Shown here: one piece after another, positions 6,196 through 23,782 of the stretch
How the letters are laid out: every line of letters begins with the position of its first letter
How positions within the stretch are numbered: position 1 is the stretch's first letter
The notes under the pieces: model-generated
What the model was told of the DNA's origin: nothing
What the model saw: only the letters and a program-made list of their open reading frames with translations
Database searches by the model: none
Program-made: the position numbers and the translations under genes
Source: Lewinella sp. IMCC34183
GTDB lineage: Bacteria > Bacteroidota > Bacteroidia > Chitinophagales > Saprospiraceae
Direction of reading: 5' to 3'
Assembly: GCF_003390915.1 (NCBI RefSeq)
Contig: NZ_QMEM01000002.1
Location: forward strand, 124,001 to 188,000
Length of the DNA stretch: 64,000 bases

Positions 6196-6320
6196 CCACT
6201 ATGAAAGACTGCTGCCGACCCGACCAAAAGCCCGGCCCCGTTAAGCGGGTACTCAACAAGCTCACCACGATCATCCTTGCCGCGCTGGCGATAGCGGCGC
6301 TGCTGGCGGTCCTGTTCTAA
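6192..6320 (+). CDS. Small membrane peptide with N-terminal Cys pair
   Basis: 42 residues from an ATG that overlaps the stop of the previous gene (ATGA at 6192-6195); an in-frame ATG at 6201 would give 39. The peptide starts MTTMKDCCRPDQKPGP and continues into one hydrophobic helix of ~18 residues (IILAALAIAALLAVLF) running to the C-terminus. The Cys pair before a single transmembrane helix could bind soft metal on the cytoplasmic face. Translational coupling and its place between DUF2231 and HMA genes support a real gene. No family is recognised. Confidence 0.7.
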   Translation: MTTMKDCCRPDQKPGPVKRVLNKLTTIILAALAIAALLAVLF

Positions 6321-6330
6321 CCAACCTATT

Positions 6331-6552: not shown

Positions 6553-6560
6553 ACCTGACG

Positions 6561-6589
6561 CACATCCGATGTGTGGCACATCCGATGTG
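6561..6589. repeat. 13-bp palindromic element, two units (16-bp step)
   Basis: Two copies of CACATCCGATGTG (6561-6573, 6577-6589) separated by TGG. Both have the CCG centre. They start 8 bp after the HMA gene stop and end 19 bp before the permease ATG. Confidence 0.95.
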
Positions 6590-6608
6590 CGTCTGCAAAC
6601 CCTAACGC

Positions 6609-7835
6609 ATGAATACGTTTCTTTCCCAGTGGGGCGAAGCCGCCTACACCTCCGTCGGTTTTTTTTGGATGGCCCTGTGGGCCTTTGCCTTCGGTTACCT
6701 CGTCAGTAGTATGATCCAGGTGCTGGTGACGCAGGAGCGTATGCAGCGGGCCATGGGTGGAGAGGGTGCCCGGCAGGTCGGGCTGGCCGCCTTATTCGGC
6801 TTCATCAGTTCCTCCTGCAGCTTCGCGGCGCTGGCCACGACCAAGTCCCTGTTCAAGAAAGGCGCCGGCTTCGTACCCTCCATTGCCTTCCTCCTGGCGA
6901 GCACCAACCTGGTGATCGAGCTGGGGGTGGTGATCGCGGTCTTCCTCACCTGGCAATTCGTGGTGGGTGAGTACGTCGGTGGCCTGTTGCTGATCGGCTC
7001 GGCGTGGTTGTTCATCCGACTTACCCGGCCTAAAGCACTGATTGAGGAAGCCCGCGACCGCCTCGGCGGCCAGGACGAAGATACCGACAAGGACCTCCCC
7101 AACTGGAAGGAGCGGCTGGTCGAGTACGACGCCTGGAAAAAGATCGGCAAGCGCTACCGCATGGAGTGGGGGATGGTGTGGAAGGACGTCACCGTAGGCT
7201 TCACGATCGCCGGTATCGTGGCGGTGTTCATCCCCACCGGCTTTTACGAAACGCTGTTCATCGGCACCGGCGGGGACGGCGGCTACACCTTCCTACAGAT
7301 CCTGGAGCACACCCTCGTCGGGCCGGTGATGGCCTTCATCACCTTCATCGGCAGTATGGGCAACATTCCGCTGGCGGCGGTCCTGTTCGACAACGGCGTG
7401 AGCTTTGCCGGCGTGATGGCCTTCATCTTCAGCGACCTGGTCGTTTTTCCCGTGCTGCGCATTAATGCGAAGTACTACGGGTGGAAAATGGCCCTGTATA
7501 TCCTGCTGACGCTCTTCGTTTCGCTGGTGGCCACTACCCTGGCCCTCCACTACGGCTTTTCGCTGGCGGGTCTGCTGCCGCAAGGGGCCGGCCAGGGCGG
7601 CGGCATCACCGACCAGCAGTTCTTCAAGCTCGACTACTCCTTCTGGCTCAACGTGGCCTTCGTGGTCGGTTCCGGCGTCCTTTACTGGCTCAGCACGAAA
7701 AAGATCAGCGACGACAGCCTGAAAGGCATGCACGAAATGCCCGACAAGGGTTGGGTAGAAACGGTGCTCTTCTGGCTGGCCATGGTCAGCTACGCCTGGT
7801 TGCTGGGGGGGCTGGCGATCAAGTTTTTCGGGTAG
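6609..7835 (+). CDS. ArsP-type permease (PF03773-like)
   Basis: 408 residues with about ten membrane helices in two similar halves. Hallmarks are the SSSCSFAALA motif with a Cys in the first half, the following FVPSIAFLLASTNL helix, and the matching GSMGNIPLAAVLFDNGVSF segment in the second half. The halves are joined by a charged loop around residues 145-185. The family includes arsenical and metalloid permeases and many members of unknown substrate. Its position at the end of the copper cluster makes metal or metalloid export likely, but the substrate is inferred. The upstream gap to the HMA gene is 56 bp and holds a pair of 13-bp palindromes. Confidence 0.88.
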   Translation: MNTFLSQWGEAAYTSVGFFWMALWAFAFGYLVSSMIQVLVTQERMQRAMGGEGARQVGLAALFGFISSSCSFAALATTKSLFKKGAGFVPSIAFLLASTNLVIELGVVIAVFLTWQFVVGEYVGGLLLIGSAWLFIRLTRPKALIEEARDRLGGQDEDTDKDLPNWKERLVEYDAWKKIGKRYRMEWGMVWKDVTVGFTIAGIVAVFIPTGFYETLFIGTGGDGGYTFLQILEHTLVGPVMAFITFIGSMGNIPLAAVLFDNGVSFAGVMAFIFSDLVVFPVLRINAKYYGWKMALYILLTLFVSLVATTLALHYGFSLAGLLPQGAGQGGGITDQQFFKLDYSFWLNVAFVVGSGVLYWLSTKKISDDSLKGMHEMPDKGWVETVLFWLAMVSYAWLLGGLAIKFFG

Positions 7836-7858
7836 CCCTGGCCTACGCCAGCCCCCCG

Positions 7859-7887
7859 CACATCCGATGTGCACCACATCCGATGTC
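7859..7887. repeat. 13-bp palindromic element, two units (16-bp step)
   Basis: CACATCCGATGTG at 7859 and CACATCCGATGTC at 7875, separated by CAC. It lies in the gap between the convergent permease and PAP2 genes, 23 bp after the permease stop. Confidence 0.95.
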
Positions 7888-7945
7888 GGGGGCGACGGCG
7901 CGCGGGTGCCGGGATTTCCCAGCAATTCGGTCGTTTTCCGGCTAC

Positions 7946-7958
7946 CACATCGGATGTG
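7946..7958. repeat. 13-bp palindromic element, single unit
   Basis: One CACATCGGATGTG in the middle of the same convergent gap; the only isolated intergenic unit. Confidence 0.92.
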
Positions 7959-7997
7959 CGCCGGCGGATCAGGCGGTTTTTAGGCCAGCGTCCTTGC

Positions 7998-8026
7998 CAC
8001 ATCGGATGTGCAGCACATCCGATGTA
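7998..8026. repeat. 13-bp palindromic element, two units (inverted pair)
   Basis: CACATCGGATGTG (7998) and CACATCCGATGTA (8014) with spacer CAG. CGG and CCG centres make the pair a nearly perfect hairpin with a 3-nt loop. It ends 20 bp downstream of the PAP2 stop. Confidence 0.95.
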
Positions 8027-8046
8027 CACACGCAATCGGCGGCAGC

Positions 8047-8742
8047 CTACACCCTAATCGTGTTATCTACCGGACCCGACCGCCACGTATCGCTCAGGTA
8101 CACCCGGATCAGCACCATCAGGCAGACCAGCCCCACGAAGAAGCCCGCCAGCACGTCCGTAAACCAGTGCGCCCCGAGGTATACCCGCGAAAACGGTACC
8201 GCCAGCAAAAGGGCAAGACTGAACAGCCCTATCGTCCACCGCAGGGCGTCGGCCTTCCAGTTCATGCGGGCCATCAAAAAGACCAGGAAGCCAAAGAAGG
8301 TCACGTAAAAGGTAACGTGGCCGCTCGGAAAGCTCTGAAACTTGGCATTCGTCACTACCTCGACCAGGTCCGCGGTGGGGCGGGGCCGGTTGACGGCGAT
8401 CTTCAGGCCGTAGACCACTATTCCGGACAGTAACGTCAGCAAGGTGAAGCCCGCCTCCCGCCGCGCGTGGATCAGGTACAGGATAAAAGCCGCTCCACCG
8501 ACCGCGATCCCCGGCATATAGCCGTCTCCGAACCAGCTGGTGGCCTTCATCAGGGCGTTGAGGATCGGGTTACGGTGCTCCTGCAATTCCTCGGAGAAGT
8601 GGACGTCAACGTACGTCACCCCCATCAGCTGTACGAAAATGGTCAGCAACAGGAATCCGACCAGCAGTCCGGCGATGACGTAAAACGCCAGACGCTTGTC
8701 GCGATTGAGGTAGGTATACAGCCGGCGTAGGTAATCGATCAT
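8047..8742 (-). CDS. PAP2-family membrane phosphatase
   Basis: 231 residues with about six membrane helices. The three PAP2 signature blocks are present: KIAVNRPRP, SFPSGHVTF (PSGH) and SRVYLGAHWFTDV. This fits a phosphatidic-acid or undecaprenyl-pyrophosphate phosphatase acting at the outer face of the inner membrane; the exact lipid cannot be told from sequence. The ATG at 8742 overlaps the stop of the MFS gene (ATGA), giving a coupled two-gene operon; a longer reading to 9033 would run through the MFS gene and is rejected. Confidence 0.93.
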   Translation of the reverse strand: MIDYLRRLYTYLNRDKRLAFYVIAGLLVGFLLLTIFVQLMGVTYVDVHFSEELQEHRNPILNALMKATSWFGDGYMPGIAVGGAAFILYLIHARREAGFTLLTLLSGIVVYGLKIAVNRPRPTADLVEVVTNAKFQSFPSGHVTFYVTFFGFLVFLMARMNWKADALRWTIGLFSLALLLAVPFSRVYLGAHWFTDVLAGFFVGLVCLMVLIRVYLSDTWRSGPVDNTIRV

Positions 8743-9926
8743 CCCGGAAAGTACGTTTTGCCGGCGTCGCGAATCCGGTTGACGTACAGGGCTACCGCCA
8801 GCGCCAGTACCGCCGTCCCGGTGAACACCGCTACCGGACCCAGAAAGACCCAGGCCAGCCCCGCGGCCGAACTGGCGACCAGACTGGCAACGCTCTCGCC
8901 GGCACTCACCGTACCGATGGCCGTGCCCGTCTCGCGCTGGGGTACCAGATGGCTGATCCAGGCCTTGGCCACCCCCTCGGTGGCCGCCGCGTAGAGTCCG
9001 TAGGCGGCAAACAGCACCCCGAAGTGCCACCACGTCGCCGCGTAGGCCAGACCGAAGTACACCGCGGCAAAGACGAGCAGCCCACCGACGTAGACCTTGC
9101 GGGGACCGAAGCGGTCCGCCAGTCCGCCGAACGGATAGGCCAGCACGGCGTAGACCAGGTTGTAGAATACGTACCAGCCGATCAGCGCCGTATCGCTCAG
9201 GCCCGCCTCCTTGAGCATGAGCAGCAAAAACAGGTCGGAACTATTGATAAGGGCTAAGGCGATGAGCCCCCAGAAGAGGCGGCGGTAGGCGGCACCGGCG
9301 GTGCGGATGTAGCGCACGAACTCCAGCAATCCGGGGCGCCCGCCCGACTGTGGCGTGGTAGCCTGTTCCTTCAGCAGCATCGTAGCCGCCACCGCGAGTA
9401 AGCCCGGCACCGCCGAGACAATGAACAGCCAGCGGTACTCGCCCGGATATGCATAGAGGAAGGCCAGCGCGATCAGGGGACCCAGCGCCGCACCGGTGGT
9501 GTCCATGGCGCGGTGGAAGCCGAATACCCGCGCCTTCGTCTCCGGGCGGGCGGCTCCGGCCAACAGGGCGTCGCGCCCGCCCGTACGCACGCCCTTGCCC
9601 AGGCGCTCGCCGGTCCGCGCAAGGAATACCCACCAAGGAGCGGTAAAGACGGCCATGAGGGGCTTGGCGATGGCGCTGATACCGTAGCCGATCTGTACGA
9701 AAGGGAGCCGGCGCCCGGTGCGGTCCGACCACTGCCCGAAGTAGCCCTTGCTCAGTCCGGCGGTAGCCGAGGCCACCCCCTCCAGTACACCGATGCCGGC
9801 GATGGAGAAGCCGATGCTTTCCAGGTACAGCGGCATCACGGGGTACAGCATCTCGCTGGCCACGTCGGTGAGCAGGCTCACCGCGCCGAGCAGGACGACC
9901 GTCCGGGTGATGATCTTTTCGCGCAT
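8739..9926 (-). CDS. MFS transporter
   Basis: 395 residues with about twelve membrane helices and MFS loop motifs (GQWSDRTGRRLPF between helices 2 and 3, GGLADRFGPRKVYV in the second half). The type resembles multidrug or unknown-substrate MFS exporters. The ATG at 9926 is chosen: the longer reading to 9965 starts inside a palindromic repeat and adds residues encoded by that repeat. It overlaps the PAP2 gene by 4 bp and diverges from the DUF3347 lipoprotein at 10061. Substrate unknown. Confidence 0.9.
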   Translation of the reverse strand: MREKIITRTVVLLGAVSLLTDVASEMLYPVMPLYLESIGFSIAGIGVLEGVASATAGLSKGYFGQWSDRTGRRLPFVQIGYGISAIAKPLMAVFTAPWWVFLARTGERLGKGVRTGGRDALLAGAARPETKARVFGFHRAMDTTGAALGPLIALAFLYAYPGEYRWLFIVSAVPGLLAVAATMLLKEQATTPQSGGRPGLLEFVRYIRTAGAAYRRLFWGLIALALINSSDLFLLLMLKEAGLSDTALIGWYVFYNLVYAVLAYPFGGLADRFGPRKVYVGGLLVFAAVYFGLAYAATWWHFGVLFAAYGLYAAATEGVAKAWISHLVPQRETGTAIGTVSAGESVASLVASSAAGLAWVFLGPVAVFTGTAVLALAVALYVNRIRDAGKTYFPG

Positions 9927-9944
9927 GCGCAAACAACGTTTCCG

Positions 9945-9973
9945 CACATCGGATGTGCGGGACATCCGATGTG
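9945..9973. repeat. 13-bp palindromic element, two units (inverted pair)
   Basis: CACATCGGATGTG at 9945 and GACATCCGATGTG at 9961, separated by CGG. It sits in a divergent intergenic region, 18 bp upstream of the MFS start codon, so a terminator role is unlikely here. Confidence 0.95.
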
Positions 9974-10060
9974 CGGCGGGGACGCAAAATATCCGTCCGG
10001 CAAAGCGGTGACCGCCCCGCCGCCCTCCGTCAGAATATCAATCTACCAACTGCCTACATC

Positions 10061-10564
10061 ATGACCACTACGTTCCTTCGCTCGCTCATTCTGCTGTCCC
10101 TGTTCGCATTGACGACCTGTCAGGAAGCCTCTCCCACCGCCCCGGGCCAGGAGACTCCGGTACAGTTCGGCGACGCACAGGTGGATAGCATCTACCACAA
10201 TTACCTCGATCTCCAGCAGGCACTGGCCAACTCCGACCCCGAACAGGCCGCCGCAGCCGCCGCCCAGCTGAATGCCGGATTCAGCGCCAGCCAGGCGGAA
10301 CTGCGGTACCTGGCCCGCCACATCGCGGCCAGCAACGACCTGGAGGTCCAGCGCCGGTACTTCTTCCCGATGACCGATCAGCTCGAACCCGTATTCAGCA
10401 GCCGCATGACTCAGGGCACCATCTACCGTATGCACTGCCCGGCGGCCAATAACGGGGTCGGCGCCGACTGGTACTCCGCCGTCACCCAGGTTCAAAACCC
10501 TTACCTGGGCACCGCCGCACCCGCCTGCGGCAAAGTCGTTTCCCACCTCAGGGGCCGGGGATAA
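10061..10564 (+). CDS. DUF3347-like lipoprotein with altered metal motif
   Basis: 167 residues with a lipoprotein-like signal ending at Cys20 (LTTC) and a region clearly related to the lipoprotein at 1577 (YHNYLDLQQALANSD, GTIYRMHCP, GADWYSAV). The end differs: CPMA has become CPAA and the NPYFG...ML.CG block has become NPYLG...PACG, so two Met that are constant in the other two copies are lost. It may have lost or changed metal specificity. The ATG at 10061 is chosen for the clean signal peptide; a reading from 9953 would start inside a palindromic repeat. Convergent with the GNAT gene. Confidence 0.85.
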   Translation: MTTTFLRSLILLSLFALTTCQEASPTAPGQETPVQFGDAQVDSIYHNYLDLQQALANSDPEQAAAAAAQLNAGFSASQAELRYLARHIAASNDLEVQRRYFFPMTDQLEPVFSSRMTQGTIYRMHCPAANNGVGADWYSAVTQVQNPYLGTAAPACGKVVSHLRGRG

Positions 10565-10596
10565 CCGTCCGGCAGGCGATCCCACCCAGCCGTCCG

Positions 10597-11127
10597 CTAC
10601 AGCTCCTTACCCATCCGCCACATACCCCGGTACGCGGGGAGCATACGCGGCATCTCGAGGGTAAAAGGTGCCAGGCGGGCAAAGCCCAGCCGCTCGTAAA
10701 AGGCAAGTGCGTCGGCGGCGGAGTCCATGGCTTCGAGCCACAGGAGCTTGTCGCCCCGCTTCCGGCACTGCGCCTCCACGAATTCCAGGGCGCGGGAGCC
10801 GATGCCCCGCCCCGCTACCGCCGGGTCGAGGTAAAGGCGGTGCAATTTTGTCGCGTTCAGGGTAAGTCGGTCGGGTGCGGGTCGGCCGGCGACGCTGCGG
10901 ACGATCCCTACGGGCTCGTCGTTTAACTGAATGAAGCGGTAGTCGGCATCGGGTTCGGCCAGTTCGCGGTGCACGTTTTCCGGGCTGTACTGGGCGTCGA
11001 CGTACCACGCGCCACCGTCGGGCCAGAGGTAAGCGTACACCGGGGGGTAGATGCGGCGCATGAGCGCGTAGAGCGTGGGCTGCTGATCCGGCCGGACCGG
11101 CACGAAAGAGAGAGTTGAACTATCCAT
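10597..11127 (-). CDS. GNAT family N-acetyltransferase
   Basis: 176 residues with the GNAT fold: N-terminal strand and helices, YRFIQLNDEPVGIV as the central strands, LHRLYLDPAVAGRGIGSRAL as the acetyl-CoA-binding motif A (RGIG), and LLWLEAMDSAADALAFYERLGF as motif B. It should transfer an acetyl group from acetyl-CoA to an amine, but the acceptor is unknown. It follows the small gene at 11141-11350 with a 13-bp gap, so they may be co-transcribed. Confidence 0.92.
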   Translation of the reverse strand: MDSSTLSFVPVRPDQQPTLYALMRRIYPPVYAYLWPDGGAWYVDAQYSPENVHRELAEPDADYRFIQLNDEPVGIVRSVAGRPAPDRLTLNATKLHRLYLDPAVAGRGIGSRALEFVEAQCRKRGDKLLWLEAMDSAADALAFYERLGFARLAPFTLEMPRMLPAYRGMWRMGKEL

Positions 11128-11140
11128 CGAAAGAGCTTGA

Positions 11141-11350
11141 CTAACCGGCCCGGTCCATCCACCACATCTTGGCCTGCCACAGGGCCTTGCGGAGGAGGCT
11201 TTCCCGGTCCTCCCCGGGCTGCTCTTCGCGTAGGCGATTGGCGATTTCGACGGCCATTTCCTGTAATTCCGGCTCGCGGTCGTTGAGCTCGTCGCCGAAG
11301 TCCGCGCGGGTGATCGGCCGGGTGGAGGGATTGTCGTTCAAGGCTGGCAC
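11141..11350 (-). CDS. Small acidic hypothetical protein
   Basis: About 69 residues from a GTG at 11350 (a TTG at 11341 is also possible). The longer reading to 11410 runs into the palindromic repeats and is rejected. The protein is charged and helical, with a C-terminal LLRKALWQAKMWWMDR amphipathic segment. No family is recognised. The start codon is uncertain because no in-frame ATG lies outside the repeat, so a non-coding status cannot be excluded. It precedes the GNAT gene by 13 bp. Confidence 0.5.
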   Translation of the reverse strand: MPALNDNPSTRPITRADFGDELNDREPELQEMAVEIANRLREEQPGEDRESLLRKALWQAKMWWMDRAG

Positions 11351-11373
11351 TGTGGGTGGGCAGCAAAGGTACG

Positions 11374-11418
11374 CACATCGGATGTCCCCCACATCGGATG
11401 TGCGGGACATCCGATGTG
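11374..11418. repeat. 13-bp palindromic element, three units (16-bp step)
   Basis: Units at 11374 (CGG centre), 11390 (CGG) and 11406 (CCG), with spacers CCC and CGG. The only triple array in the window. It lies 7 bp downstream of the CusB stop and 23 bp upstream of the next start codon on the same strand. Confidence 0.96.
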
Positions 11419-11425
11419 CGGTGCC

Positions 11426-12655
11426 TCAGTGTTCGTGCCCGAGCTCGCCCGCCATGCCCTGCGCCTGTACGTAGTAGGCGTTCTCGGTCACCAGCCGCAG
11501 GCCGGCCGGCAGGGGATCCACGAAGCGTACGGCGGTGTAGCCGTCCTCGGTCGCCCCGGGCGTGACGCGCAGGGGCGTGAAGGCGACTTCATCTCCCCCC
11601 GCGGACGGGTCGGCGGCGTAGACGTAGCTGAATTCCCCCTCCCGCACCACGGCCCCCTCGGGCAGGGCGGTAGCCGTAGCGTTGTCGAGCCAGATGCGGG
11701 CGTTGGCGAAGCGGTCCCGGATGAAGGGCGGCTCCTCCCCCACCAGGTGGGCGTGTACGCGGACGGTCTTGTTCTCGGGATTGAATTCCTTGCCGATCAC
11801 GTGGACCTCGGCTTCGTAGACCTTATTGTTCAGCGAGGGAATGCGGTAGGTGACCCGCTGCCCTTCCTCTACCCGGCCGATGTCGCGCTCGAAGACGTCC
11901 AATTCCAGGTGCAGGTGCTCTTCATCGATGAGCTCCATCAGCTGCGTGCTCGGCTCCACGTACATCCCCGCGTGCAGGGCGATGGTGGTGATGTAGCCCG
12001 TCCGCGGCGCAAAGAGCGTGATCCGTTGGGTGATGCTTTCCGGCGTCAGGTCGGCCGTGCGGATGCCGAGGTACTCCAGGCGTTCCCGCAGTCCGGCCAG
12101 GGTGGCGGTGCGGGCGGCTACGCTTGATTCCAGGCGCTGGACGGTGTTGAGCACGCCGGCGGAGTCAGCGTACAGCTGTTGCTGCCGTGCCAGGTCCTGC
12201 CGCAGGTAGGTGAGTTCGGCCTGCGCCTCCAGGTACCGTTGCTGCAGGTCGATGAAGTCGGGATTCTCCAGGTAGCCCAGTACGGCACCCCGCTTAACGT
12301 AGTCGCCCTCCACGTAGTTGGCCACGTCGCGCACGAAGCCGGAGGCACGGGCGCTCACGGCGGCGTAGGCATTGGGGGGCAGGCCCAGGCTGCCGGTGGC
12401 GGTGAGGTAATCGTTGAGTTTGAGCTGCTGGGTGTCGCCGAAGGCGATGTCCATGGCGGCGATCTGCTCGGTCGACAGGTGGATGCCGCCCCCGTCGTGG
12501 TGGTCCTCGTCGACGTGCCCGTCGGCCGGGGCCGCCGCGGAGGCGTCGGGTTCGGGCGGCGCGGCGCAGGTGCCAAGGAAAGCCAGGAACAGGAGCAACA
12601 GCAGGTTCCGGCTTCCGGGCCCCGCGGGGAAATGGTTAGGCGTGGGGTTATTCAT
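11426..12655 (-). CDS. CusB-type periplasmic adaptor of heavy-metal RND pump
   Basis: 409 residues. A lipoprotein signal ends at Cys30 (LGTC) and is followed by an acidic/His patch (DEDHHDGGGIH). Next come the barrel-sandwich half (SARASGFVRDV, VEGDYVKRGAVLGYL), a coiled-coil hairpin (~residues 140-200), the second lipoyl half (FAPRTGYITTIALHAGMYV) and beta-barrel plus membrane-proximal domains. This is the HlyD/CusB adaptor layout. The N-terminal His patch could bind metal. It overlaps the CusA gene by 8 bp, so the two are translated together and form one efflux complex. Confidence 0.95.
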   Translation of the reverse strand: MNNPTPNHFPAGPGSRNLLLLLFLAFLGTCAAPPEPDASAAAPADGHVDEDHHDGGGIHLSTEQIAAMDIAFGDTQQLKLNDYLTATGSLGLPPNAYAAVSARASGFVRDVANYVEGDYVKRGAVLGYLENPDFIDLQQRYLEAQAELTYLRQDLARQQQLYADSAGVLNTVQRLESSVAARTATLAGLRERLEYLGIRTADLTPESITQRITLFAPRTGYITTIALHAGMYVEPSTQLMELIDEEHLHLELDVFERDIGRVEEGQRVTYRIPSLNNKVYEAEVHVIGKEFNPENKTVRVHAHLVGEEPPFIRDRFANARIWLDNATATALPEGAVVREGEFSYVYAADPSAGGDEVAFTPLRVTPGATEDGYTAVRFVDPLPAGLRLVTENAYYVQAQGMAGELGHEH

Positions 12656-15600
12656 TGCGCAAGTATTGGAGCCGGAAGACGGCCAGGTTGTGGGTCAGGG
12701 TTTCGGAGAGAAGCGACTGCCGGTTTTCGGCCAGTGTACGGAGGGCATCAAGCACCTCGAGGTAGCTCAGTTCGCCGGCGCGGTAGCTCAGCCGCGCGAC
12801 GCGGGCCACTTCGGCTACGGTGCCGTCACCCCGGTCGCGGTAGAAGGCGATGTTGTCCGCCGCCGCCCGGATCTCGGCGGCTAGGCCCGCCCGGTCACGA
12901 GAGTAGGCCAGCCGGGTATTTTCAAGTCGGGCTTCGGCTGCTTCCACCTCGATGCGGCGCGCCTCCACGCGCCGGCGGTTCGGGCCGGTGAAGAGCTGCA
13001 GGCTCATGCCAGCCTCGAGCCCGCTCAGGTAGCCGCCCTGGTCAAACCGCTGGGCGGAGTACCCGAGGCGGAAGGCGGGCAGGGTCTGGGCGGCGGTCAC
13101 GTCAACGGCAGCCTGGCTCTCGGCCACCCGCTGGCGGGCTAGGGCAACGGCGGGGTTTCGCTCCGCGTCCGTATCGGGCAGCGGGAACGCGGTCACCGGG
13201 ATAAGGGTGTCGGCGGGCAGGATTACGCTGCCCGTGAGGAGGCCCAGTTGCTCCTGCAGGCCGTCGCGCAAGATCTGGTTAGCATCGTCTTGCTGGCGTA
13301 CCACCTCGCGTTCGGCCGCGATGCGCAGGGGCTCCAGGCGGCTGCCGGCACCCGCTTCGGCCCGGGAGGCGGCGATGCGGTAGTACTCCTGGTACGTGTC
13401 GAGCAACCGGAGATAATGACGGTGGAGGGCCTCGCGGTACTGCAGGCGCGCGTACAGGGTACGCAGCGACAGCCGCAGCTCGGCCGCGGTCAACTCCCGC
13501 TCGGCGAGGCTGCCGGCGACTACGGCATCCTGCACGGCGTTGGCGGCGCGGAGCGCCTCGGGGTGGTCGAAGCGCTGCACCAGGCTGAGCTGGTTGACCC
13601 GCTGGTTGTTGGCGCGGAAGAGCCCGTCGCCGTTGTAGCTGAGGTCGGTGGTTCCGGGGGCGTAGGGCAGGTCCTGTAGCGTACGTCCGCTCGCGGTGAG
13701 GCGGTCGGCGGCCCGCAGACCGGGATTGGCGGCCGAGCCTGCCTGCACCGCCTCTTCCAGGGAAAGCCGTTGCACCTGCGCCGTGGCGCCCGCGGCACAG
13801 AAGAGCAGGGGCAGCAGGACCACCAGTCCACGGGCGGTGCCCCGCCGGCGCTGCCAGCCCTCCAGCCAGCTGTAGCCGATGGGCAGGATGACCAGCGTGA
13901 GGAAGGTAGCGGTGATGAGGCCGCCGATCACCACCGTGGCCAGGGGACGCTGTACCTCTGCGCCGCCCGAATTGGACAGGGCCATCGGCAGGAGGCCGAG
14001 GGAGGCCACCGCCGCCGTCATGATGACGGGCCGCAGCCGCACGCGCGTGCCCTCGACGATGCGGGCGCGCACGTCGTCCCAGCCCTCGGCCTTGAGCTGG
14101 TTGAAGTAGCCCACCAGCACGATGCCGTTGAGTACCGCCACGCCGAAGAGGGCGATGAAGCCGATACCCGCCGAGATGCTGAAGGGCATATCGCGCAGCA
14201 CCAGCGCCCATACGCCGCCGATGGCCGACAGCGGAATGGCCACGAAGATCAGCAGCGCCTGCGGGAAGCTGCCGAAGGTGAAGTAGAGCAGAATGAAGAT
14301 CAGCGCCAGCGCCACGGGCACCGCCACCGCCAGGCGGGCGGAGGCGGCCTGCAGGTTCTCGAACTGCCCGCCGTAGGTGAGGTAGTAGCCGGCCGGAAGG
14401 TCCAGGTTGGCGTCGAGGGTACGCTGGATGTCTTCGACCAGGGTTTCCACGTCGGTATCGCCGACGTTGACGCCGATGACGGTGCGCCGGTTGGTGTTCT
14501 CGCGGCTGATCTGCATGGGGGCGTCCTTCAGCTGTACGGAGGCTACTTCGCGCAGGGGTACCTGCCCACCGCCGGGCAGCGGGATGTAGAGGTTGGCAAC
14601 GTCGTCGATGCCGGTACGCTCGTCGGTGCCCAGGCGCACGGTGAGGTCGAAGCGCCGCTCGTTCTCGTAGATGGTGCCCGCCGACGCCCCGGCAAAGGCC
14701 GCCCCCACGACGCGGTTGACGTCGCGGACCTGCAGGCCGTACTGGGCGAGCTTACCGTAGTCGAAGTCGACCACGATCTGCGGCATGCCGGTCGTCTGCT
14801 CCACCGTGACGGTGCTGGCGCCGGGCAGGGCGGAAATGAGGGCCTGGGCGTCGCGTGCCTTGCGGTAGGCGAGGTCGAGGTCGGGGCCGTAGAGCTTGAC
14901 GGCGATGTCGGCCTTGGTGCCGGTCATCAGCTCGTTGAAGCGCAGCTGGATGGGCTGGGAAAACTCCAGTCCCAGGCCGGGGAAGATCCGCAGCGCCTCC
15001 TCGATCGCCTCGAACATCCCCTGACGGTCGCTGGCGGTCTCCCATTCGTCGCGCGGCTGCATCACGAAGGTGTAATCGCCGGTCTCCACGGGCATCGGGT
15101 CGGTAGGGATCTCAGCCGAGCCGATGGAGGTGACCACGTCCATCACTTCGGGAATCTTTTCCAGGATACGACGCTGCACCTTCTCGGTCATGTCGACGCT
15201 CTCGGCCAGGGACGTGCCCGGCGGCATGATCTGCTGCATGGCCAGGTCGCCCTCCTCGAGGGTGGGGATGAACTCGCCGCCCAGGCGAGTGAATTGCCAC
15301 CAGCTGAGCAGAAAGAGCGCGGCGGTGGCCACCACGAAAACGGCCTTGAAGCGCAGGGCTGTCCGCAGCAGCGGCGCGTAGCCCCGCTGGAAGAAGCCGA
15401 TGATGCGGTCGGCGACGGTCCGCTTGCTGACCACCCGCTTACTGAGGAAGAGGGCGGAAACGGCCGGCACGTAGGTCAGGGAGAGGATGAGCGCCCCGGT
15501 GATGGCCAGCATGACGGTCTGCGCCATGGGCCGGAACATCTTTCCTTCGATACCGACCAGCGCCAGGATGGGCAGGTAGACCAGCAGGATGATGATCTCC

Positions 15601-16949: not shown

Positions 16950-17009
16950 AGGGAAAAGCTAAGTCTAAAACCGAGTAAAGTGGACAGGGGTATCCCGTGG
17001 TTTCGCAGA

Positions 17010-17324: not shown

Positions 17325-17370
17325 ACGCAGGGAATACGCCCGGGCGGGGGGATTGGTTGAGCGGGGGATG

Positions 17371-17399
17371 CACATCGGATGTGCAGCACATCCGATGTC
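17371..17399. repeat. 13-bp palindromic element, two units (inverted pair)
   Basis: CACATCGGATGTG at 17371 and CACATCCGATGTC at 17387, separated by CAG. Located in the divergent gap between the DUF6660-like and DUF6503-like genes, 46 and 60 bp from their start codons. Confidence 0.95.
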
Positions 17400-17459
17400 G
17401 ACTCCGCGCAGCCGCGAACCTACTCCCCTACCCCGCTGTCTCCCTGAAAACCCCCGCCC

Positions 17460-18335
17460 ATGCGTTACCTGCCCCTGCTCGCGCTGCTGTTTTGCCTTGC
17501 CTGTACGTCGGAACCGAAATCGAGCGCCCCATCTGACGACGGCACCGCCCAGGAAGCCGGTTCCCCCTACGCCGACCGGATCGAAGCGGCCTACGAACGC
17601 CTGGAAGCCGACACCGCCGGCCGGCGGGTGCTGCTCGCCATCGAGGCCCACGGTGGATTGGAAGCGTGGTACGGAAACGGCCCACTCTACTACCACTTCA
17701 ATTATCAGCCCCTCGACGACGGCTCCCCCCGCAATACCCTGGCCTACAACGACTACGTGAACAGCCGTGCCGTGCACCTGCTGGCTACCGATACGACGCA
17801 GCGGTTCGGTTTTGACGGTACGGAAGCTTGGTCCACCACGGGCGAGCGGATCGACGGCATGAGCCCCCGGTTCTGGTCGCTTACGCCCTACTACTTCGTA
17901 GGCCTGCCCTTCGTACTGGCGGACGCCGGCATCATCCTGGATACCCTGTCCCCCGCCTCCCTCGATGGCACGACGTACGACATGGTCCGCGTGACCTACG
18001 AAAGCGGTACCGGCGACGCCGACGGCGATTACTACGTGCTCTACCTCAACCCGGATACCGGACAGCTGGATGCCCTACGGTACGTAGTATCCTACCCCGG
18101 CTACTTCCCAAACGGCGGCCATACGCCGGAAAAACTGATGCAACTCACCGGCAAGACCAAGGTCGACGGCGTCACCCTGCCCACCGGCTACGCCACTAAC
18201 TACTGGAACGACGGCGACCCCGGTGAGCGCGTGACCGATATTCAAGTCACCGACTACGCCTTCCGGCCGGAGCTCGGCGGTGACTTCTTCGCGATGCCCG
18301 ATTCCGCGCGTACCTTCAACGACTTGCCGCAGTAG
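17460..18335 (+). CDS. DUF6503-like lipoprotein
   Basis: 291 residues. A lipoprotein signal ends at Cys15 (CLAC). The mature part begins with a low-complexity linker and an AYERLEADTAG helix, followed by LLAIEAHGGLEAWYGNGPLYYHF and many beta strands with aromatic residues. This resembles the LolA-like/DUF6503 outer-membrane lipoproteins of Bacteroidota, whose function is unknown. It is divergent from the metal pump genes and lies upstream of the CPA1 antiporter, separated by a palindrome pair. Confidence 0.75.
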   Translation: MRYLPLLALLFCLACTSEPKSSAPSDDGTAQEAGSPYADRIEAAYERLEADTAGRRVLLAIEAHGGLEAWYGNGPLYYHFNYQPLDDGSPRNTLAYNDYVNSRAVHLLATDTTQRFGFDGTEAWSTTGERIDGMSPRFWSLTPYYFVGLPFVLADAGIILDTLSPASLDGTTYDMVRVTYESGTGDADGDYYVLYLNPDTGQLDALRYVVSYPGYFPNGGHTPEKLMQLTGKTKVDGVTLPTGYATNYWNDGDPGERVTDIQVTDYAFRPELGGDFFAMPDSARTFNDLPQ

Positions 18336-18341
18336 CCTTTG

Positions 18342-18370
18342 CACATCGGATGTCCTGGACATCCGATGTG
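18342..18370. repeat. 13-bp palindromic element, two units (inverted pair)
   Basis: CACATCGGATGTC at 18342 and GACATCCGATGTG at 18358, separated by CTG. It fills nearly all of the 56-bp gap between two same-strand genes, 6 bp after the first stop and 21 bp before the antiporter ATG. Confidence 0.95.
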
Positions 18371-18391
18371 CGTGTTCCCAAAACGCCCCGT

Positions 18392-19666
18392 ATGGATATT
18401 TTTCACCTGTTCGCCATCCTCGTCGTCTTCACGGCCGTATTTAGCTACCTGAATACCCGCTTTCTTCAGATCCCGGCTACCATCGGGCTGTTCGTGGCCG
18501 GGACCCTTTTTTCCGTGGTCGTCCTGATCGTCGGGCATTTTTACCCGGAGGTAATTGCGTACGACCGCCAGGTCTTGGAACAGATCGACTTTTCGGAATT
18601 CCTGCTCGAGGGCATCCTGAGCTTTCTGTTGTTTGCCGGCGCCATCAACCTGGATCCCGAGGAGCTAAAGGCCCAACGCGGCCCCATTCTCCTTTCCGCC
18701 TTCGGCGCCACGCTGCTGTCGGCCACGCTGGTGGGCGGGCTCACCTACTACGTGCTGCAGCTGTTGGGTACGCCGATACCCTTCCTGCACGCCCTGATCT
18801 TCGGAGCGCTTATCTCTCCGACGGACCCGGTGGCTACCCTCGGCATACTGGAGCACACCTCTATATCCGAGTCGCTCAAGACCAAGATCGCCGGCGAGAG
18901 CCTCTTCAACGACGGACTGGGCTACGTGGCCTTCCTGATCCTGACCCGGATTGCCGTGCCGGTCCCCGGGGCGGAGGAAATTACTGCCTGGTCTGTCGGT
19001 TTAATCTTCGTGCAGGAAGTGTTCGGGGCGGTGGTGCTCGGGTACCTGCTGGGGAAAATGGTGTCCTTCGCCCTTTCCACCATCGACAATTACCAGACGG
19101 AGGTGCTCATCACCCTCGCGATGGTACTCGGGGGCTACACGCTGGCTAATTCGTTGCACATCTCCGGCCCGCTGACCGTCGTGATCGGCGGCATTGCCCT
19201 CGTCCGGGGGGTCGACGACCGGCAGGCCGTTTCCGATACGACGCAGGATTACCTCGTCAAGTTCTGGGAACTCGTTGACGAGCTGCTGAACGCGGTGCTG
19301 TTCCTCCTGATCGGGCTATTCATCCTGCAGGTAGAATTCCACTGGTTCATTTTCGTAGCCGGTATCATCGCGATCCCGATCGTGGTGCTTTCCCGCTTCG
19401 TATCCCTCAAACTGCTGATCGAGTCCGTCAAGCGGCGCTTCCCCTTCGAGCGCCACGCGGCCACCATCATGACCTGGGGCGGCCTGCGCGGCGGTATCTC
19501 CATCGCGCTGGCGCTGAGCCTGGCACCGGAGATCAGCAAGGACCTGATCCTCGGCATCACCTACATCGTGGTGCTCTTCTCGATCGTGGTGCAGGGACTG
19601 ACCCTGCAGGGCTTGGTGAAGAAACTGGAAGACGAAACCCACGAGACACCGGCAACCGGCGCATAA
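18392..19666 (+). CDS. CPA1-family sodium/proton antiporter
   Basis: 424 residues with about twelve membrane helices. CPA1 (NhaP/NHE) marks are FGALISPTDPVATLGIL, GESLFNDGLGYVAF with the paired Asn-Asp ion site, and MTWGGLRGGISIALAL near the C-terminus. It exchanges Na+ or K+ for H+ at the inner membrane, which fits a marine organism. The ATG at 18392 is used because the longer reading from 18350 begins inside the palindromic repeat. It ends convergently, 32 bp from the esterase stop. Confidence 0.94.
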   Translation: MDIFHLFAILVVFTAVFSYLNTRFLQIPATIGLFVAGTLFSVVVLIVGHFYPEVIAYDRQVLEQIDFSEFLLEGILSFLLFAGAINLDPEELKAQRGPILLSAFGATLLSATLVGGLTYYVLQLLGTPIPFLHALIFGALISPTDPVATLGILEHTSISESLKTKIAGESLFNDGLGYVAFLILTRIAVPVPGAEEITAWSVGLIFVQEVFGAVVLGYLLGKMVSFALSTIDNYQTEVLITLAMVLGGYTLANSLHISGPLTVVIGGIALVRGVDDRQAVSDTTQDYLVKFWELVDELLNAVLFLLIGLFILQVEFHWFIFVAGIIAIPIVVLSRFVSLKLLIESVKRRFPFERHAATIMTWGGLRGGISIALALSLAPEISKDLILGITYIVVLFSIVVQGLTLQGLVKKLEDETHETPATGA

Positions 19667-19698
19667 GTGGGGTAGATCGTCACGGCTGCCCGGTAATG

Positions 19699-20580
19699 TC
19701 AGTTGCGCGGACGCAACGAGCCGTTCGTCTCCAGCACCTTGCGGAAGAACAGTACGTGATAGGGCAGGGAGTTGCTCCAGTAGGGCCAGGAATGTCCGCC
19801 CGGGCGCTCCGAGTAGTCGTGTGGCGTGCCGTTGAATACCAGCCGCCGGTGGAGCTCGCGGTTGGGCTCGATCAGAAAATCATCCACTCCGCAGTCGAAG
19901 ATCAGGGCCACGTCGTTGGCCTGCATGCTATCGGCGTAGGAGAGCACGTTCGCTTCCCGGTAGACCTCCCGGCCGCCCTCCTTCGGACCCAGTATGCGTG
20001 CGAAGGAGCGGCCCACATCCTCGGTAGCCTGCGGGGGCAAGTTCCAGCCCGCCATATCCGGATTCAGGGCACCACTCATGCTGCCGGCCGCGCAGAACAG
20101 GTCGGGGTGCCGGGCCGAGAGGTAGAGGGAGCCGTAACCGCCCATGGAGAGCCCCGTAACCACCCGGCCCTCCCGCCTCGCGATCGTCTTGTACCGCCGG
20201 TCGATGGTGCCGATCACTTCCTGGGTGATGTAGGTCTCGAACTGGCTGTCTTCCAGCACCGGGCTGTCCAGGTAGTAGCTGAACCACTCCCCTTCCGGCA
20301 TCACGATGATGAGGTGATTTTCGTCAGCGAGCCGGGTCAGCATAGCCGGCTCCGGCAACTTGAGGATCCAGTCGTCGAAGTGCCCGAGCCCTCCGTGCAA
20401 CAGGTAAAGGACCGGATGCGCTCCCCCCTCCGTTTTGTAGGAGTCGGGCAGGATAACGACGGCTTTGTAGTCCTTGCCCATGACGGTGCTGGGAACCTGA
20501 ATGGTGTCGACCGTCGCGGCGGTAGCGGTAGCCCCAAACAGCAAAAGACAGAATAGCAAACTCGGGATACGGGGGATCAT
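19699..20580 (-). CDS. Secreted esterase, alpha/beta-hydrolase (esterase D type)
   Basis: 293 residues with a signal peptide (about residues 1-22). The layout fits putative esterases of the EstD/FrmB type: YLLHGGLGHFDDW as the oxyanion loop, nucleophile Ser145 in GLSMGGYGS, an acid in FDCGVDDFL, and the His in RPGGHSWPYW. Similar proteins are feruloyl or acetyl esterases in polysaccharide breakdown, but the substrate cannot be told. It lies downstream of the GH2 gene, on the same strand with a 74-bp gap that contains an 8-bp-stem hairpin. Confidence 0.92.
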   Translation of the reverse strand: MIPRIPSLLFCLLLFGATATAATVDTIQVPSTVMGKDYKAVVILPDSYKTEGGAHPVLYLLHGGLGHFDDWILKLPEPAMLTRLADENHLIIVMPEGEWFSYYLDSPVLEDSQFETYITQEVIGTIDRRYKTIARREGRVVTGLSMGGYGSLYLSARHPDLFCAAGSMSGALNPDMAGWNLPPQATEDVGRSFARILGPKEGGREVYREANVLSYADSMQANDVALIFDCGVDDFLIEPNRELHRRLVFNGTPHDYSERPGGHSWPYWSNSLPYHVLFFRKVLETNGSLRPRN

Positions 20581-20606
20581 AACATCAGTTTGCAGTAAGG
20601 TATAAC

Positions 20607-20627
20607 ATTGTCTCGAAAAGAGACAAT
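20607..20627 (-). terminator. Hairpin between GH2 and esterase genes
   Basis: Perfect 8-bp arms ATTGTCTC/GAGACAAT around a 5-nt loop, 28 bp after the GH2 stop and 26 bp before the esterase start. It lacks a long T-run, so it may be a weak terminator, an mRNA-stability element or an operator. Confidence 0.4.
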
Positions 20628-20654
20628 ACGGATTCCCGGCCGCTCCGCTCCGCC

Positions 20655-22946
20655 CTATTCCGTGCCGAATAACCCCAGGTCGAAGGATAGATTTCTACGA
20701 TCCTCTACCCCCTTCACCCGTACCGTGATGGTGTTCTCGCCCTTTTCCAGCTGCCCCAGCGCGTCGTCGATGCGCCGGACGGTATAGTGTCCGAAACCAC
20801 CGCCGCCCACGGGCACGTCCAGCACTTCCTTTCCGTTGAGGAATACGGTGAAGTCCACGCTGCCGTTGACGTATTCGGCGTAGAGGTGGGTGGGGGTCCG
20901 GTCCGCGCGAAAGGTCCGGGTGAGGTAAAGCGTCCGTTCGGGATTCCAGCCGTTGCCCCGGGGCTGGAAGAAGTCGGCGTAGGTAGCAAAGGGACCGTTT
21001 ACGGTGCGCAGGTTGGCGGTCTGCGGCAGCGTACCGCCGGTCAGTAACTGCCCATCTTCCGAGGTGGTCATTTGCCAGCGTTGCGGCGCGTGTTCCGACT
21101 TGTCCAGTAGCGACAGGCGGCGGGGCGCGGGTGCGTAGAGTTCCTCGAACAGCCTGGGAGCGGTGACGGTATCCAGCTTCAGCACCTCGCGGTCGTAGGT
21201 CATCAGGCCGTTCACTTCCCCTTCCACGTCGGTAGTCTGGGTATAGACGGCCGCGGAAAGCCCTTCGGCACGCAGCCCGGCCAGGCCCTCAATCAGGGTT
21301 TTGAACCCCCCATTGAGCTCCTCCTGGTTGGTGAAGCTCTGGTAGCCCCAGTTGCGCTTGTTCCACCAGAGGTGATCCTCGACAACCAGTCCCAATCCGC
21401 CGAACTCGCCCAGTACCGAGGCGCGGTCTTCTTCCGGAGCTTCCATGCCGGGTCCCGGATACAGGTGGGCATCGTACATATCGCCGGCGCCGCGGTCGGT
21501 CCAGCCGCTCGGGGCATCGACCAGGCGCGTGGGGTCGTAGCTCCTGGTCCAGTCGGCGATCCGCTCCGTATCGTACTGCCCCCACCCCTCGTTGAAGGGG
21601 ACCCACACGACGATGCTGGGGAAATTATAGTAGGCATCGATCATCTCGCGGTACTCCCGCTCGAAGTGTATGCGGTCGGCGAAGGGCTGTTGGGCGTCGG
21701 TGGCGGCTTCGGGCGATACACCCGTCCGGTCGTTGATGTAGCCGCTGGGCATATCCTGCCACACCAGCACGCCCAGGGTATCGCAGGCGTGGTAGAAGGT
21801 AGCGGGCTCGGTCTTTACGTGCTTGCGCAGCATGTTGAAGCCCCACTTTTTGGTCATCTTGATGTCAAAGACCATCGCTTCCGGCGTCGGGGCGGTGTAC
21901 AGGCCGTCCGGCCACCACCCCTGATCGAGGGGACCGAACTGGAAATAGGGCTGATCGTTGAGCAGCATGACGGTGTGGCCGTTGGCGTCCTTGCCCAGCG
22001 AAATCTTCCGCATCCCCGTGTAGCTGCCTACCGCATCTAGGGCAGTAGCCCCGTCCAGCAGCCGCACCGAGACCCCGTAGCGGTAGGGGTCTTCCGGCGA
22101 CCACAGGTGTACGTCTGGCAAGGTTACCCGGCCGGCACCCAGCCGACTCCCGGCGGGGAGGTCGATATCCGTAGTTGCCACTTCGCGACCCGTGGCGTCC
22201 GTGATGGTCACCCTTGCGCTGCGGTCCGCGGTGAGCCCGGAAGTGTGGACCACTACGTCCACGGCGGAAGCATCGACATTCGGGGTGATTTTCAGATCGG
22301 TGAGGTGTTCCCGGGGAACTACCTCCGTCCAAACCGTCTGCCAGATGCCGGTGACGGGCGTGTAGAAGATGCCCCCCGGCGCGTTGACCTGTTTGCCGCG
22401 GGGTTGCAGGCCAGCGTCCGTTGGGTCCCAGACGCGCAGGCTCAGCACCTGCGTCCCCCGCCCCGTTAGAAAGGGAGTGACATCGAAACTAAAGGGTACA
22501 TAGCCGCCCTCGTGCCCCCCCACCACTTCGCCGTTGAGGTAGACCGTGGCGCGGAAATCCACCGCGCCGAAGTGCAGCAGCAGCCGATCGCCGTTACCGA
22601 GGCGTGGCGCGGGAAACTCCCGGCGATACCAGAGGTACTGCTCTTCGCCGACCAGCTTTTTGACGCCGCTCAGACTAGACTCCACGGCGAACGGGACCAG
22701 TATCGTACCGTCGTAACGCCGGGGGGGAGTAGATTGGGAGAGGGGGGTGATGGCGTATTCCCATTCCCCGTTCAGGTTGGTCCACTCGCCGCGGGTCATC
22801 TGGGGGCGGGGGTACACGTCCCAGGGCTGGTCGCGGTCGACGCGGTCGGTCCAGGGGGTGGAGAGTTCGAAATCCAGTACGTCCGGCTCCTGGGCACACA
22901 GCGCGAGGGAGAACAGGACAAGGAACAGGCTAAGGGAGGTACGCAT
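20655..22946 (-). CDS. Glycoside hydrolase family 2 protein
   Basis: 763 residues with a signal peptide ending near LCAQ. Domain order is a sugar-binding jelly-roll (YLNGEVVGGHEGGYVPFSFD), an Ig-like GH2 domain, a TIM barrel and a C-terminal jelly-roll (YVNGSVDFTVFLNGKEV). The acid/base is Glu453 in PFNEGWGQYD, and the nucleophile is probably Glu514 in LGEFGG. Family activities include beta-galactosidase, beta-mannosidase and beta-glucuronidase; the specificity is not clear. The ATG at 22946 is chosen because it starts the signal peptide. It is likely periplasmic and may form a catabolic unit with the esterase downstream. Confidence 0.94.
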   Translation of the reverse strand: MRTSLSLFLVLFSLALCAQEPDVLDFELSTPWTDRVDRDQPWDVYPRPQMTRGEWTNLNGEWEYAITPLSQSTPPRRYDGTILVPFAVESSLSGVKKLVGEEQYLWYRREFPAPRLGNGDRLLLHFGAVDFRATVYLNGEVVGGHEGGYVPFSFDVTPFLTGRGTQVLSLRVWDPTDAGLQPRGKQVNAPGGIFYTPVTGIWQTVWTEVVPREHLTDLKITPNVDASAVDVVVHTSGLTADRSARVTITDATGREVATTDIDLPAGSRLGAGRVTLPDVHLWSPEDPYRYGVSVRLLDGATALDAVGSYTGMRKISLGKDANGHTVMLLNDQPYFQFGPLDQGWWPDGLYTAPTPEAMVFDIKMTKKWGFNMLRKHVKTEPATFYHACDTLGVLVWQDMPSGYINDRTGVSPEAATDAQQPFADRIHFEREYREMIDAYYNFPSIVVWVPFNEGWGQYDTERIADWTRSYDPTRLVDAPSGWTDRGAGDMYDAHLYPGPGMEAPEEDRASVLGEFGGLGLVVEDHLWWNKRNWGYQSFTNQEELNGGFKTLIEGLAGLRAEGLSAAVYTQTTDVEGEVNGLMTYDREVLKLDTVTAPRLFEELYAPAPRRLSLLDKSEHAPQRWQMTTSEDGQLLTGGTLPQTANLRTVNGPFATYADFFQPRGNGWNPERTLYLTRTFRADRTPTHLYAEYVNGSVDFTVFLNGKEVLDVPVGGGGFGHYTVRRIDDALGQLEKGENTITVRVKGVEDRRNLSFDLGLFGTE

Positions 22947-22961
22947 GATTAGTGGGTCGAC

Positions 22962-22980
22962 TTGGTGTACCACCAATATA
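22962..22980 (-). promoter_or_regulatory. Candidate operator/promoter upstream of GH2 gene
   Basis: TTGGTG-TAC-CACCAA inverted repeat (22962-22976) lies 15 bp upstream of the GH2 start. On the minus strand it runs into TATATTGG, one mismatch from the Bacteroidota -7 consensus TAnnTTTG. No good -33 element was found. Suggests a repressor site over the promoter; inference only. Confidence 0.3.
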
Positions 22981-23006
22981 GGTACCCGCCCGTCGGGGAT
23001 GCCTCC

Positions 23007-23645
23007 CTAGTCGCAGCCCAGGGAGCGGGTACCCTGCTGGGGGCTGAATCCGTCCTGGTCGTAGATCACCCGGCCTTCGCCCTCTTCGATCCAGGTGCCG
23101 TTGGGGTTGCCGTTGTTGTCCAGCATGAAGTTGGCAAAGTGCAGGTTGTTGATGCCTCCTTCGGTCAGCTCTCCGGAGATCACGTGCACGAGGGTCGCCT
23201 CTGTCCCGAAGTATTCACTGTCCACTTCGACAAACACCGAGAAGGAGCAGTCGTCGCCGACGATGAAACTGCCGAGGCCGCTACCCGTTTCACCGCCGTT
23301 GCGGTAGTCGACCTTGAGGGTCAGTTCCTCGCTGTCCTGGTCGGAGAAAGTGACGTAATAGTCACTGAAGTTCATACCGGGTGTATCGCCCGGGCGGTTG
23401 CTTTCCAGCAGTATGAATGCGCTGGCGAGGTAGGTTTCCTCGATGTCCGGCGGGTTGGTGCCGCCGTTGATCGGCATCCCGAGCGTCTCCATCTCATCCA
23501 GGATGCTCTGGGGTACGAGGTCGGTGATGTCGCGGGTGAGTCCGTCCTCGTTGGTCGTGGGGCCGAACTTGTCCTTTTTGCAGCCGGGCAGGGCCAGCAG
23601 TCCGATGCAAACGAAGAGGAGTGAGGGGAAATAGCGTGTAGTCAT
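23007..23645 (-). CDS. Hypothetical lipoprotein
   Basis: 212 residues. A lipoprotein signal ends at Cys22 (LPGC), followed by KKDKFGPTTNEDGLTRDITDLVP and a beta-rich domain with two further Cys (DDCSFSVF and the C-terminal SLGCD) that could form a disulfide. Probably outer-membrane anchored. No family is recognised. It lies 61 bp upstream of the GH2 gene, on the same strand, and may be expressed with it. Confidence 0.8.
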   Translation of the reverse strand: MTTRYFPSLLFVCIGLLALPGCKKDKFGPTTNEDGLTRDITDLVPQSILDEMETLGMPINGGTNPPDIEETYLASAFILLESNRPGDTPGMNFSDYYVTFSDQDSEELTLKVDYRNGGETGSGLGSFIVGDDCSFSVFVEVDSEYFGTEATLVHVISGELTEGGINNLHFANFMLDNNGNPNGTWIEEGEGRVIYDQDGFSPQQGTRSLGCD

Positions 23646-23743
23646 AGTGGGAGTTGTTTACTGCGACCGCTGCGGGAGCGGCGTTACCCATTTATCACTT
23701 ACCCCGGTTTGGTAACCGCCGGTTTGAGGTTTTTTGTCCAGAC

Positions 23744-23772
23744 CACATCGGATGTCCGGGACATCCGATGTC
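23744..23772. repeat. 13-bp palindromic element, two units (inverted pair)
   Basis: CACATCGGATGTC at 23744 and GACATCCGATGTC at 23760, separated by CGG. Located 10 bp downstream of the NUDIX gene stop and 98 bp upstream of the lipoprotein gene. It is the last intergenic copy in the window. Confidence 0.95.
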
Positions 23773-23782
23773 GTCGGGAGCA

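Follow-up and report, generated by a model that had tools for sequence, protein, structure and literature searches.

Palindrome arrays in intergenic gaps of a Neolewinella-type clade: a REP/BIME-like family with two spellings that may be read by a co-evolving DNA-binding protein

Arrays of a short palindrome, ACATCSGATGT, occupy gaps between genes in a small clade of marine Neolewinella-type bacteria, and in one member of the clade the sites appear to have been respelled in place as ACGTCSGACGT. Broadly defined, the arrays form a REP/BIME-like family that lacks the tags characteristic of tagged REPs. We tentatively regard them as gene-boundary elements that provide sites for a putative co-evolving DNA-binding protein, a reading to which we give a little less than an even chance. 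The arrays, their steps, positions and polarity, the shared gaps and the dialect switch are legible in the DNA sequence itself, as are the clade restriction among the genomes searched and the helical spacing in two relatives.

The window, by which we mean the whole 64,000-nt stretch analysed, contains 30 cores compared to 0.01 expected from 100 shuffles (largest count in a shuffle, 1). The original prediction placed 18 units of a 13-bp palindrome, CACATCSGATGTG, in intergenic gaps, and every core was found in its place. All 18 are exact ACATCSGATGT 11-mers, whereas the full 13-mer is present in only 8. The predicted 16-bp spacing holds between array units, with the exception of the unit at 7947, which is solitary and lies 52 bp from the next. 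Five of the seven two-unit arrays have a CGG-centred followed by a CCG-centred unit as described, those at 6562 and 7860 being CCG/CCG. The features are as follows.

6562..6588, no strand assigned: two-unit array (CCG, CCG) with 16-bp step in a co-directional gap, stop codon 9 bp before
7860..7886, no strand assigned: left-hand array (CCG, CCG) in a convergent gap, adjoining the ArsP_1 permease gene
7947..7957, no strand assigned: single unit (CGG) within the convergent gap of the 7860 and 7999 arrays
7999..8025, no strand assigned: right array (CGG, CCG) of the same convergent gap as the 7860 array, adjoining the PAP2 gene
9946..9972, no strand assigned: two-unit array (CGG, CCG) in a divergent gap flanked by MFS and DUF3347 genes
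11375..11417, no strand assigned: three-unit array (CGG, CGG, CCG) in a co-directional gap, adjoining an HlyD-family gene
17372..17398, no strand assigned: two-unit array (CGG, CCG) in a divergent gap
18343..18369, no strand assigned: two-unit array (CGG, CCG), stop codon 7 bp before, followed by a Na/H exchanger gene
23745..23771, no strand assigned: two-unit array (CGG, CCG) in a co-directional gap, stop codon 11 bp away

The starts of the DUF3347 and Na/H exchanger genes, as called, fall within the arrays at 9946..9972 and 18343..18369, respectively. The gap of the 11375..11417 array has matching gaps with arrays in two relatives, G007 (L067) and G013 (L305). Twelve additional window cores lie inside open reading frames, one at 29086 and eleven in a repetitive gene, and these are taken as coding coincidences. 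The repetitive gene is a giant ORF (43102-58671, minus strand) with a 525-bp repeat, its eleven cores following one another at exact 525-bp steps between 48392 and 53642. Rfam models produced no match in the window at gathering score. Two other repeats were seen in the window: five perfect copies of the 7-bp CGCAACC (2648-2682) between two co-directional ORFs, where slippage could alter spacing or frame, and a 15-bp tandem repeat with consensus GAAGGCATGGACCAC identified by TRF at 4282-4448, within ORF 3061-5613.

The window's own genome (G000, 5.1 Mb in 57 contigs) contains 221 cores (97 + 124) and none of a reversed control pattern, in agreement with the expectation of a genome-wide excess. 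The 16-bp step extends beyond the window as predicted, accounting for 34 of the 39 steps of up to 60 bp (tallied from 100 listed core places, with the eleven coding-repeat ones omitted). Among 120 genomes, three others are rich in ACATCSGATGT: G017, probably Neolewinella marina (120 cores), G007, probably N. xylanilytica (74), and G001, probably Lewinella sp. IMCC34191 (40), all of the same genus as G000; the remainder have 0-9. The spelling ACGTCSGACGT, searched in 21 genus genomes only, occurs 96 times in G013, where ACATCSGATGT occurs five times; the corresponding counts for G017 are 0 and 120, and ACGTCSGACGT is found 0-6 times in each of the remaining 20 members of the genus. In a two-protein tree of 19 genomes, the five array-bearing genomes (G000, G001, G007, G013, G017) cluster with a support of 0.98, with G013 as the sister of G017. 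High counts are confined, among the relatives searched, to this one five-genome Neolewinella-type clade.

No stretch with a core pair was found in viral contigs, and a search of 200-kb samples from G009, G004, G018 and G014 for analogous palindromes of 9 or 11 bp returned other repeats and no comparable family. A distinct short dispersed motif, CGCAGGTGC, is present in 13 of 103 gaps in the 200-kb sample of G009 (L263-L270), while in G014 (L293-L302) the dispersed motif GCGGCAGCGCC occurs 15 times, in 14 of 96 gaps and amid longer repeats. Outside the genus, a contig scan, which gives a lower bound on the spread, found many core pairs in the metagenome-assembled genome MS-B_bin-24 among the matches listed, and at least a few in each of Patescibacteria, Kribbella and some other groups. 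The MS-B_bin-24 arrays have an 18-bp step (19 in one array) and a loop that is sometimes CTGGCAG, containing TGNCA; they are either homologous to the Neolewinella-type arrays or convergent. Mobile-looking repeats with P1 hairpins are seen in this genome (L112-L180), some consisting of two hairpins ~90 bp apart. In Kribbella (L133, L134, L147, L149), cores are 22 bp apart in an identical sequence context in four species, a pair like an ordinary operator.

The DNA uptake sequences of Neisseriaceae reportedly have dialects, a short genomic motif being spelled in a species-specific manner and matched by a cognate receptor. The array motif is likewise spelled species-specifically, and a DNA-uptake-like signal with such dialects, one of the roles originally suggested, would fit both a genome-wide dialect change and inverted pairs near gene ends. 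Unlike the Neisseriaceae sequences, the array cores are palindromic, arrayed at fixed steps, low in copy number (at most 221 per genome) and mostly in gaps (79 of the 89 non-repeat units examined in G000). The low copy number and strong gap preference argue against this role, which we consider very unlikely.

The two spellings meet at eight gaps orthologous between G013 and G017. Of the 30 G013 sites here, 28 are exact ACGTCSGACGT, one has a single mismatch and one is composed of half of each spelling, while the G017 sites are exact ACATCSGATGT in 22 of 24 cases and have one mismatch in two. None of the exact sites in the eight gap pairs has the opposite spelling. For 12 G017 sites in three gaps, the counterparts were obtained from a G013 region fetched by synteny and not by motif: nine are exact ACGTCSGACGT, two are half-and-half and one has one mismatch. 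In the 206-bp L309/L321 gap, the spacing of the four sites (33, 119, 33) is identical in G013 and G017, and the interior alignment score is 20 compared to maxima of 14 for shuffles and 17.5 for other loci. A second G013-G017 pair scored 6, with control maxima of 6 and 12, and two more listed pairs had no interior to compare. Orthologous gaps in two spellings, one pair with identical spacing and an alignable interior, thus suggest that the sites changed spelling in place. As each switch of a palindrome needs two matching changes, a common reader would be the simplest cause, and the near-complete joint respelling in G013 suggests that a matching protein reads the palindromes.

Orthologous array gaps, with both flanking genes orthologous, were first found among G000, G001, G007 and G017. 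Across all fetched loci, G000 has three such gaps in common with G001, five with G007, one with G013 and none with G017; G001 has four with G007, none with G013 and two with G017; G007 has three with G013 and five with G017. The G013-G017 pairs number eight, two of which result from the fetch design. A random draw from ~3000 gaps (an assumed number) would give less than one common gap per comparison. The surroundings of the arrays differ strongly between species, and a gap with a double array in one can have a compact single array in another. Ahead of the cytidine deaminase gene (L215/L216) there is a long intergenic repeat common to G013 and G017 that is nearly identical by eye; longer syntenic DNA of the two genomes elsewhere matches at only 74-80%.

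Array anatomy varies within the clade. Steps of 16 bp predominate in G000 and steps of 33 bp in G001 and G017, where TGNCA repeats lie between the cores; G013 has mostly 33 and 26 bp, and G007 is mixed (22-57 bp). The exact 16-bp step originally described is therefore valid for G000 but is not universal. Of 200 outermost units in the five genomes, 172 are CGG-centred when read from outside, so that array ends have polarity. Many gaps hold two inverted arrays around an interior of ~50-180 bp. Comparison of 44 such interiors revealed only three matches (17-24 bp), each between loci of the same genome, and a MITE-like interior common to loci was rejected on this ground. The units themselves are largely intact: 323 units in array gaps lie within one mismatch, 305 exact and 18 with one mismatch (either spelling taken as exact in G013), an integrity slightly overstated by the choice of loci with at least one exact unit. 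A different arrangement is seen at L314-L316 of G017, where CCG-centred cores, several ~122 bp apart, lie partly in small called ORFs.

Published accounts describe REP, BIME and REPIN elements as intergenic palindromes in inverted dimers with variable spacers near gene 3' ends, patchy among species and with termini giving TAG stops (PMC3733652, PMC6006769). REP dimers sometimes lie inside longer palindromes, and tagged REPs are GTAG- or CGTC-tagged (PMC3733652). The arrays are similar: they are short, multicopy, mostly intergenic palindromes, often in inverted pairs with variable spacers, patchy in distribution and close to gene 3' ends with co-directional and convergent gaps favoured. Some elements have a terminal TAG (15 of 48 in G007), and complementary arms around array pairs recall the REP dimers within longer palindromes (PMC3733652). 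The arrays differ in their odd, fully symmetric 11-bp unit, their 16/26/33-bp register, the TGNCA repeats and helical spacing of relatives, the gaps common across species and the in-place spelling switch, and in the loci examined they have neither a uniform tag nor a RAYT neighbour. GTAG precedes the outermost unit in 0 of 46 cases in G000, 3 of 48 in G017, 2 of 20 in G001, 6 of 48 in G007 and 1 of 38 in G013, and unpaired CGTC was found at none of the 200 outermost units of the five genomes. Literature searches gave no match for ACATCGGATGT and, among the matches listed, no title about bacterial repeats for ACATCCGATGT; they returned no palindrome work on Neolewinella, no palindromic intergenic repeats for Saprospiraceae, and nothing similar among the listed titles retrieved for helical phasing and for palindromic repeats of intergenic DNA.

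The suggestion of a REP-like mobile palindrome is supported by anatomy and distribution, but not by a uniform GTAG or CGTC tag. The arrays could descend from a selfish or formerly mobile REP/REPIN-like element, consisting of untagged palindrome dimers spread by a putative transposase, which we hold to be a serious possibility well short of an even chance. On this reading the element would be tolerated near gene 3' ends and now mostly inherited vertically, the dialect change reflecting a new master sequence. The REP-dimer-like inverted pairs, variable spacers, gene-end location, terminal TAG and pairs inside longer palindromes all favour this origin, as does the finding that 38 of 46 P1-core arrays in MS-B_bin-24 (L112-L180) have >60 bp in common with an array on another contig, as expected of mobile copies. 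However, no core of either spelling lies within ~1.5 kb of the 30 Y1 transposase matches examined of 70 listed for the genus (7 of 18 in the five array-bearing genomes, 1 of 2 in G000). Neither the near-absence of interior matches, nor the mostly exact copies, nor the in-place change at orthologous gaps, one with unchanged spacing, is readily accommodated by a selfish element.

The spacing of double arrays bears on a protein reader. Inner-unit distances cluster near 98, 109, 119 and so on, and a period scan over 6-20 bp, applied to the 58 double arrays found in G017, G013 and G001, gave a best period of 10.95 bp (R 0.58), with 0 of 5000 jittered sets as good. The 32 polarity-checked double arrays gave R 0.66 at a best period of 9.85 bp, again with 0 of 5000 jittered sets as good; the fitted period is thus loose, between 9.85 and 10.95 bp. 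When each distinct distance was used only once (31 values), 195 of 5000 jittered sets were as good. By genome, the number of jittered sets as good for all and for polarity-checked arrays was 1 and 0 of 5000 in G017, 15 and 33 of 5000 in G001, 94 (22 double arrays) and 657 (9 arrays) of 5000 in G013, and 851 of 5000 (16 double arrays) and 703 of 4000 (9 arrays) in G000. G017 and G001 thus show clear phasing, G013 weak phasing, and G000 none that is significant. Helical spacing points to proteins facing each other on double-stranded DNA, at least in some species.

Phased spacing and inverted arrays around an AT-richer interior (GC 0.435 in G017, compared to 0.532 in unit-free gaps and 0.615 overall) would also be compatible with short invertible promoters between inverted repeats. 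The presence of arrays in convergent gaps and the compact single arrays, which lack an interior, speak against such promoters, and the interiors are strongly diverged; we regard this explanation as extremely unlikely.

Symmetry extends beyond the core at some loci. The flanks of inverted pairs in G000 are complementary at 0.549 compared to 0.361, with 0 of 500 re-dealt sets as good; the corresponding numbers of re-dealt sets are 1 in G013, 31 in G007, 42 in G017 and 426 in G001 (three pairs only), and complementarity in G007, G017 and G001 is weak or none. Locus-specific complementary arms count against simple double-strand binding, which does not predict them.

Arrays start at a median of 11-21 bp from stop codons compared to 39-62 bp from start codons, and lie nearer gene 3' ends (n=112) than gene 5' ends (n=104; p 8e-9), with genes called by a custom script. 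Among gaps of at least 50 bp in the fetched loci, which were mostly picked because arrays are present, arrays are seen in 20 of the 33 convergent gaps, 66 of the 190 co-directional gaps and 16 of the 56 divergent gaps. Proximity to stop codons, the many convergent gaps with arrays and the long hairpins possible for many pairs would suit an element acting as RNA, either a transcription terminator or a 3'-UTR stabilising hairpin. A run of six T follows one of 18 long-armed pairs, but the 16-base tail of the other 17 contains no run of four T, and none of the 15 terminator-like sites in window positions 6000-24000 is located at an array, which upholds the doubt originally expressed about simple terminators. 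Long complementary arms are at least as common near gene starts (7 of 18 pairs) as near gene ends (11 of 39), which argues against a purely RNA role. Arrays also occur in divergent gaps, and RNA hairpins would need neither helical spacing nor one common core; an RNA-level element is improbable.

The genes adjoining arrays are functionally mixed: 71 flanking proteins of G000 and G007 matched 140 Pfam families, the commonest being found in 3 proteins. At the nicotinamidase gap of G000, G001 and G007, the element follows the stop codon and precedes a promoter-like TAYTTTG box (by eye, and not exact in every genome); in G013, G017 and G004 this gap is short and contains no element. Dyad-symmetric sites, in places just upstream of such a box, and a switch of dialect would both be in keeping with operators of a single transcription factor regulon. 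The mixed neighbours, the arrays in convergent gaps and the presence of two arrays per gap with common polarity do not fit an ordinary regulon, which is decidedly improbable. From the proposal of operators for one regulator, the sequence-specific binder is what remains consistent with the data. Pfam analysis of 20 genes near array clusters of G013 and G017 revealed no obvious candidate for the binder gene; it identified permeases, enzymes, a histidine kinase, a MoxR ATPase and an HhH-GPD repair protein, and three of the 20 have no Pfam family.

In the proposed model, the 11-bp unit ACATC-S-GATGT would be a double-stranded site for a dimeric, sequence-specific, host-encoded putative protein, with several dimers placed in fixed register at 16, 26 or 33 bp. 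Where a gap holds two arrays, the ~100 bp that separates them may be bridged by proteins bound to both. The nucleoprotein complex so formed would occupy the interval from the end of one transcription unit to the following promoter or gene end, and may act there as a boundary, either as a roadblock against antisense and read-through transcription or as a barrier to supercoiling. A shift of protein specificity in the G013 lineage would have been followed by the sites. With greater reserve, and as a proposition we think doubtful, this could amount to an insulator system in which a lineage-specific putative protein and tens of arrays form phased loops, the recognition code changing jointly, a change that would be preserved in the ACATCSGATGT and ACGTCSGACGT spellings of the two sister species at the same gaps. 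The enterobacterial BIME are repeated intergenic palindromes that serve as sites for gyrase or IHF, proteins of nucleoid organisation and topology; the arrays are also repeated intergenic palindromes, with a different sequence, spacing and taxon.

The model is supported by the dialect switch, the five-genome clade, the integrity of sites around unconserved interiors, the helical spacing, the polarity and the position. The many features in common with REP families (PMC3733652) count against it, as do the non-significant phasing in G000, its weakness in G013, the result with each distinct distance used once and the loose period. Furthermore, only 26 gaps carry arrays in the G000 loci (covering ~100 of the 221 units), and the arrays are therefore no general boundary device. 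We favour the protein-read boundary element while giving nearly equal weight to a selfish REP-like origin, and the two could represent earlier and later phases of a single history.

Whether bacterial repeated palindromes are selfish DNA or structural sites is a long-standing dispute. The occurrence of the same elements in the same gaps with two spellings in close species makes recognition, boundary function and co-evolution directly testable, with the same loci in both species serving as matched controls. Should a protein read the arrays, they would constitute a dispersed boundary system with a visible change of code; if none does, REP-like repeats would be able to switch sequence in place genome-wide, which is itself hard to explain.
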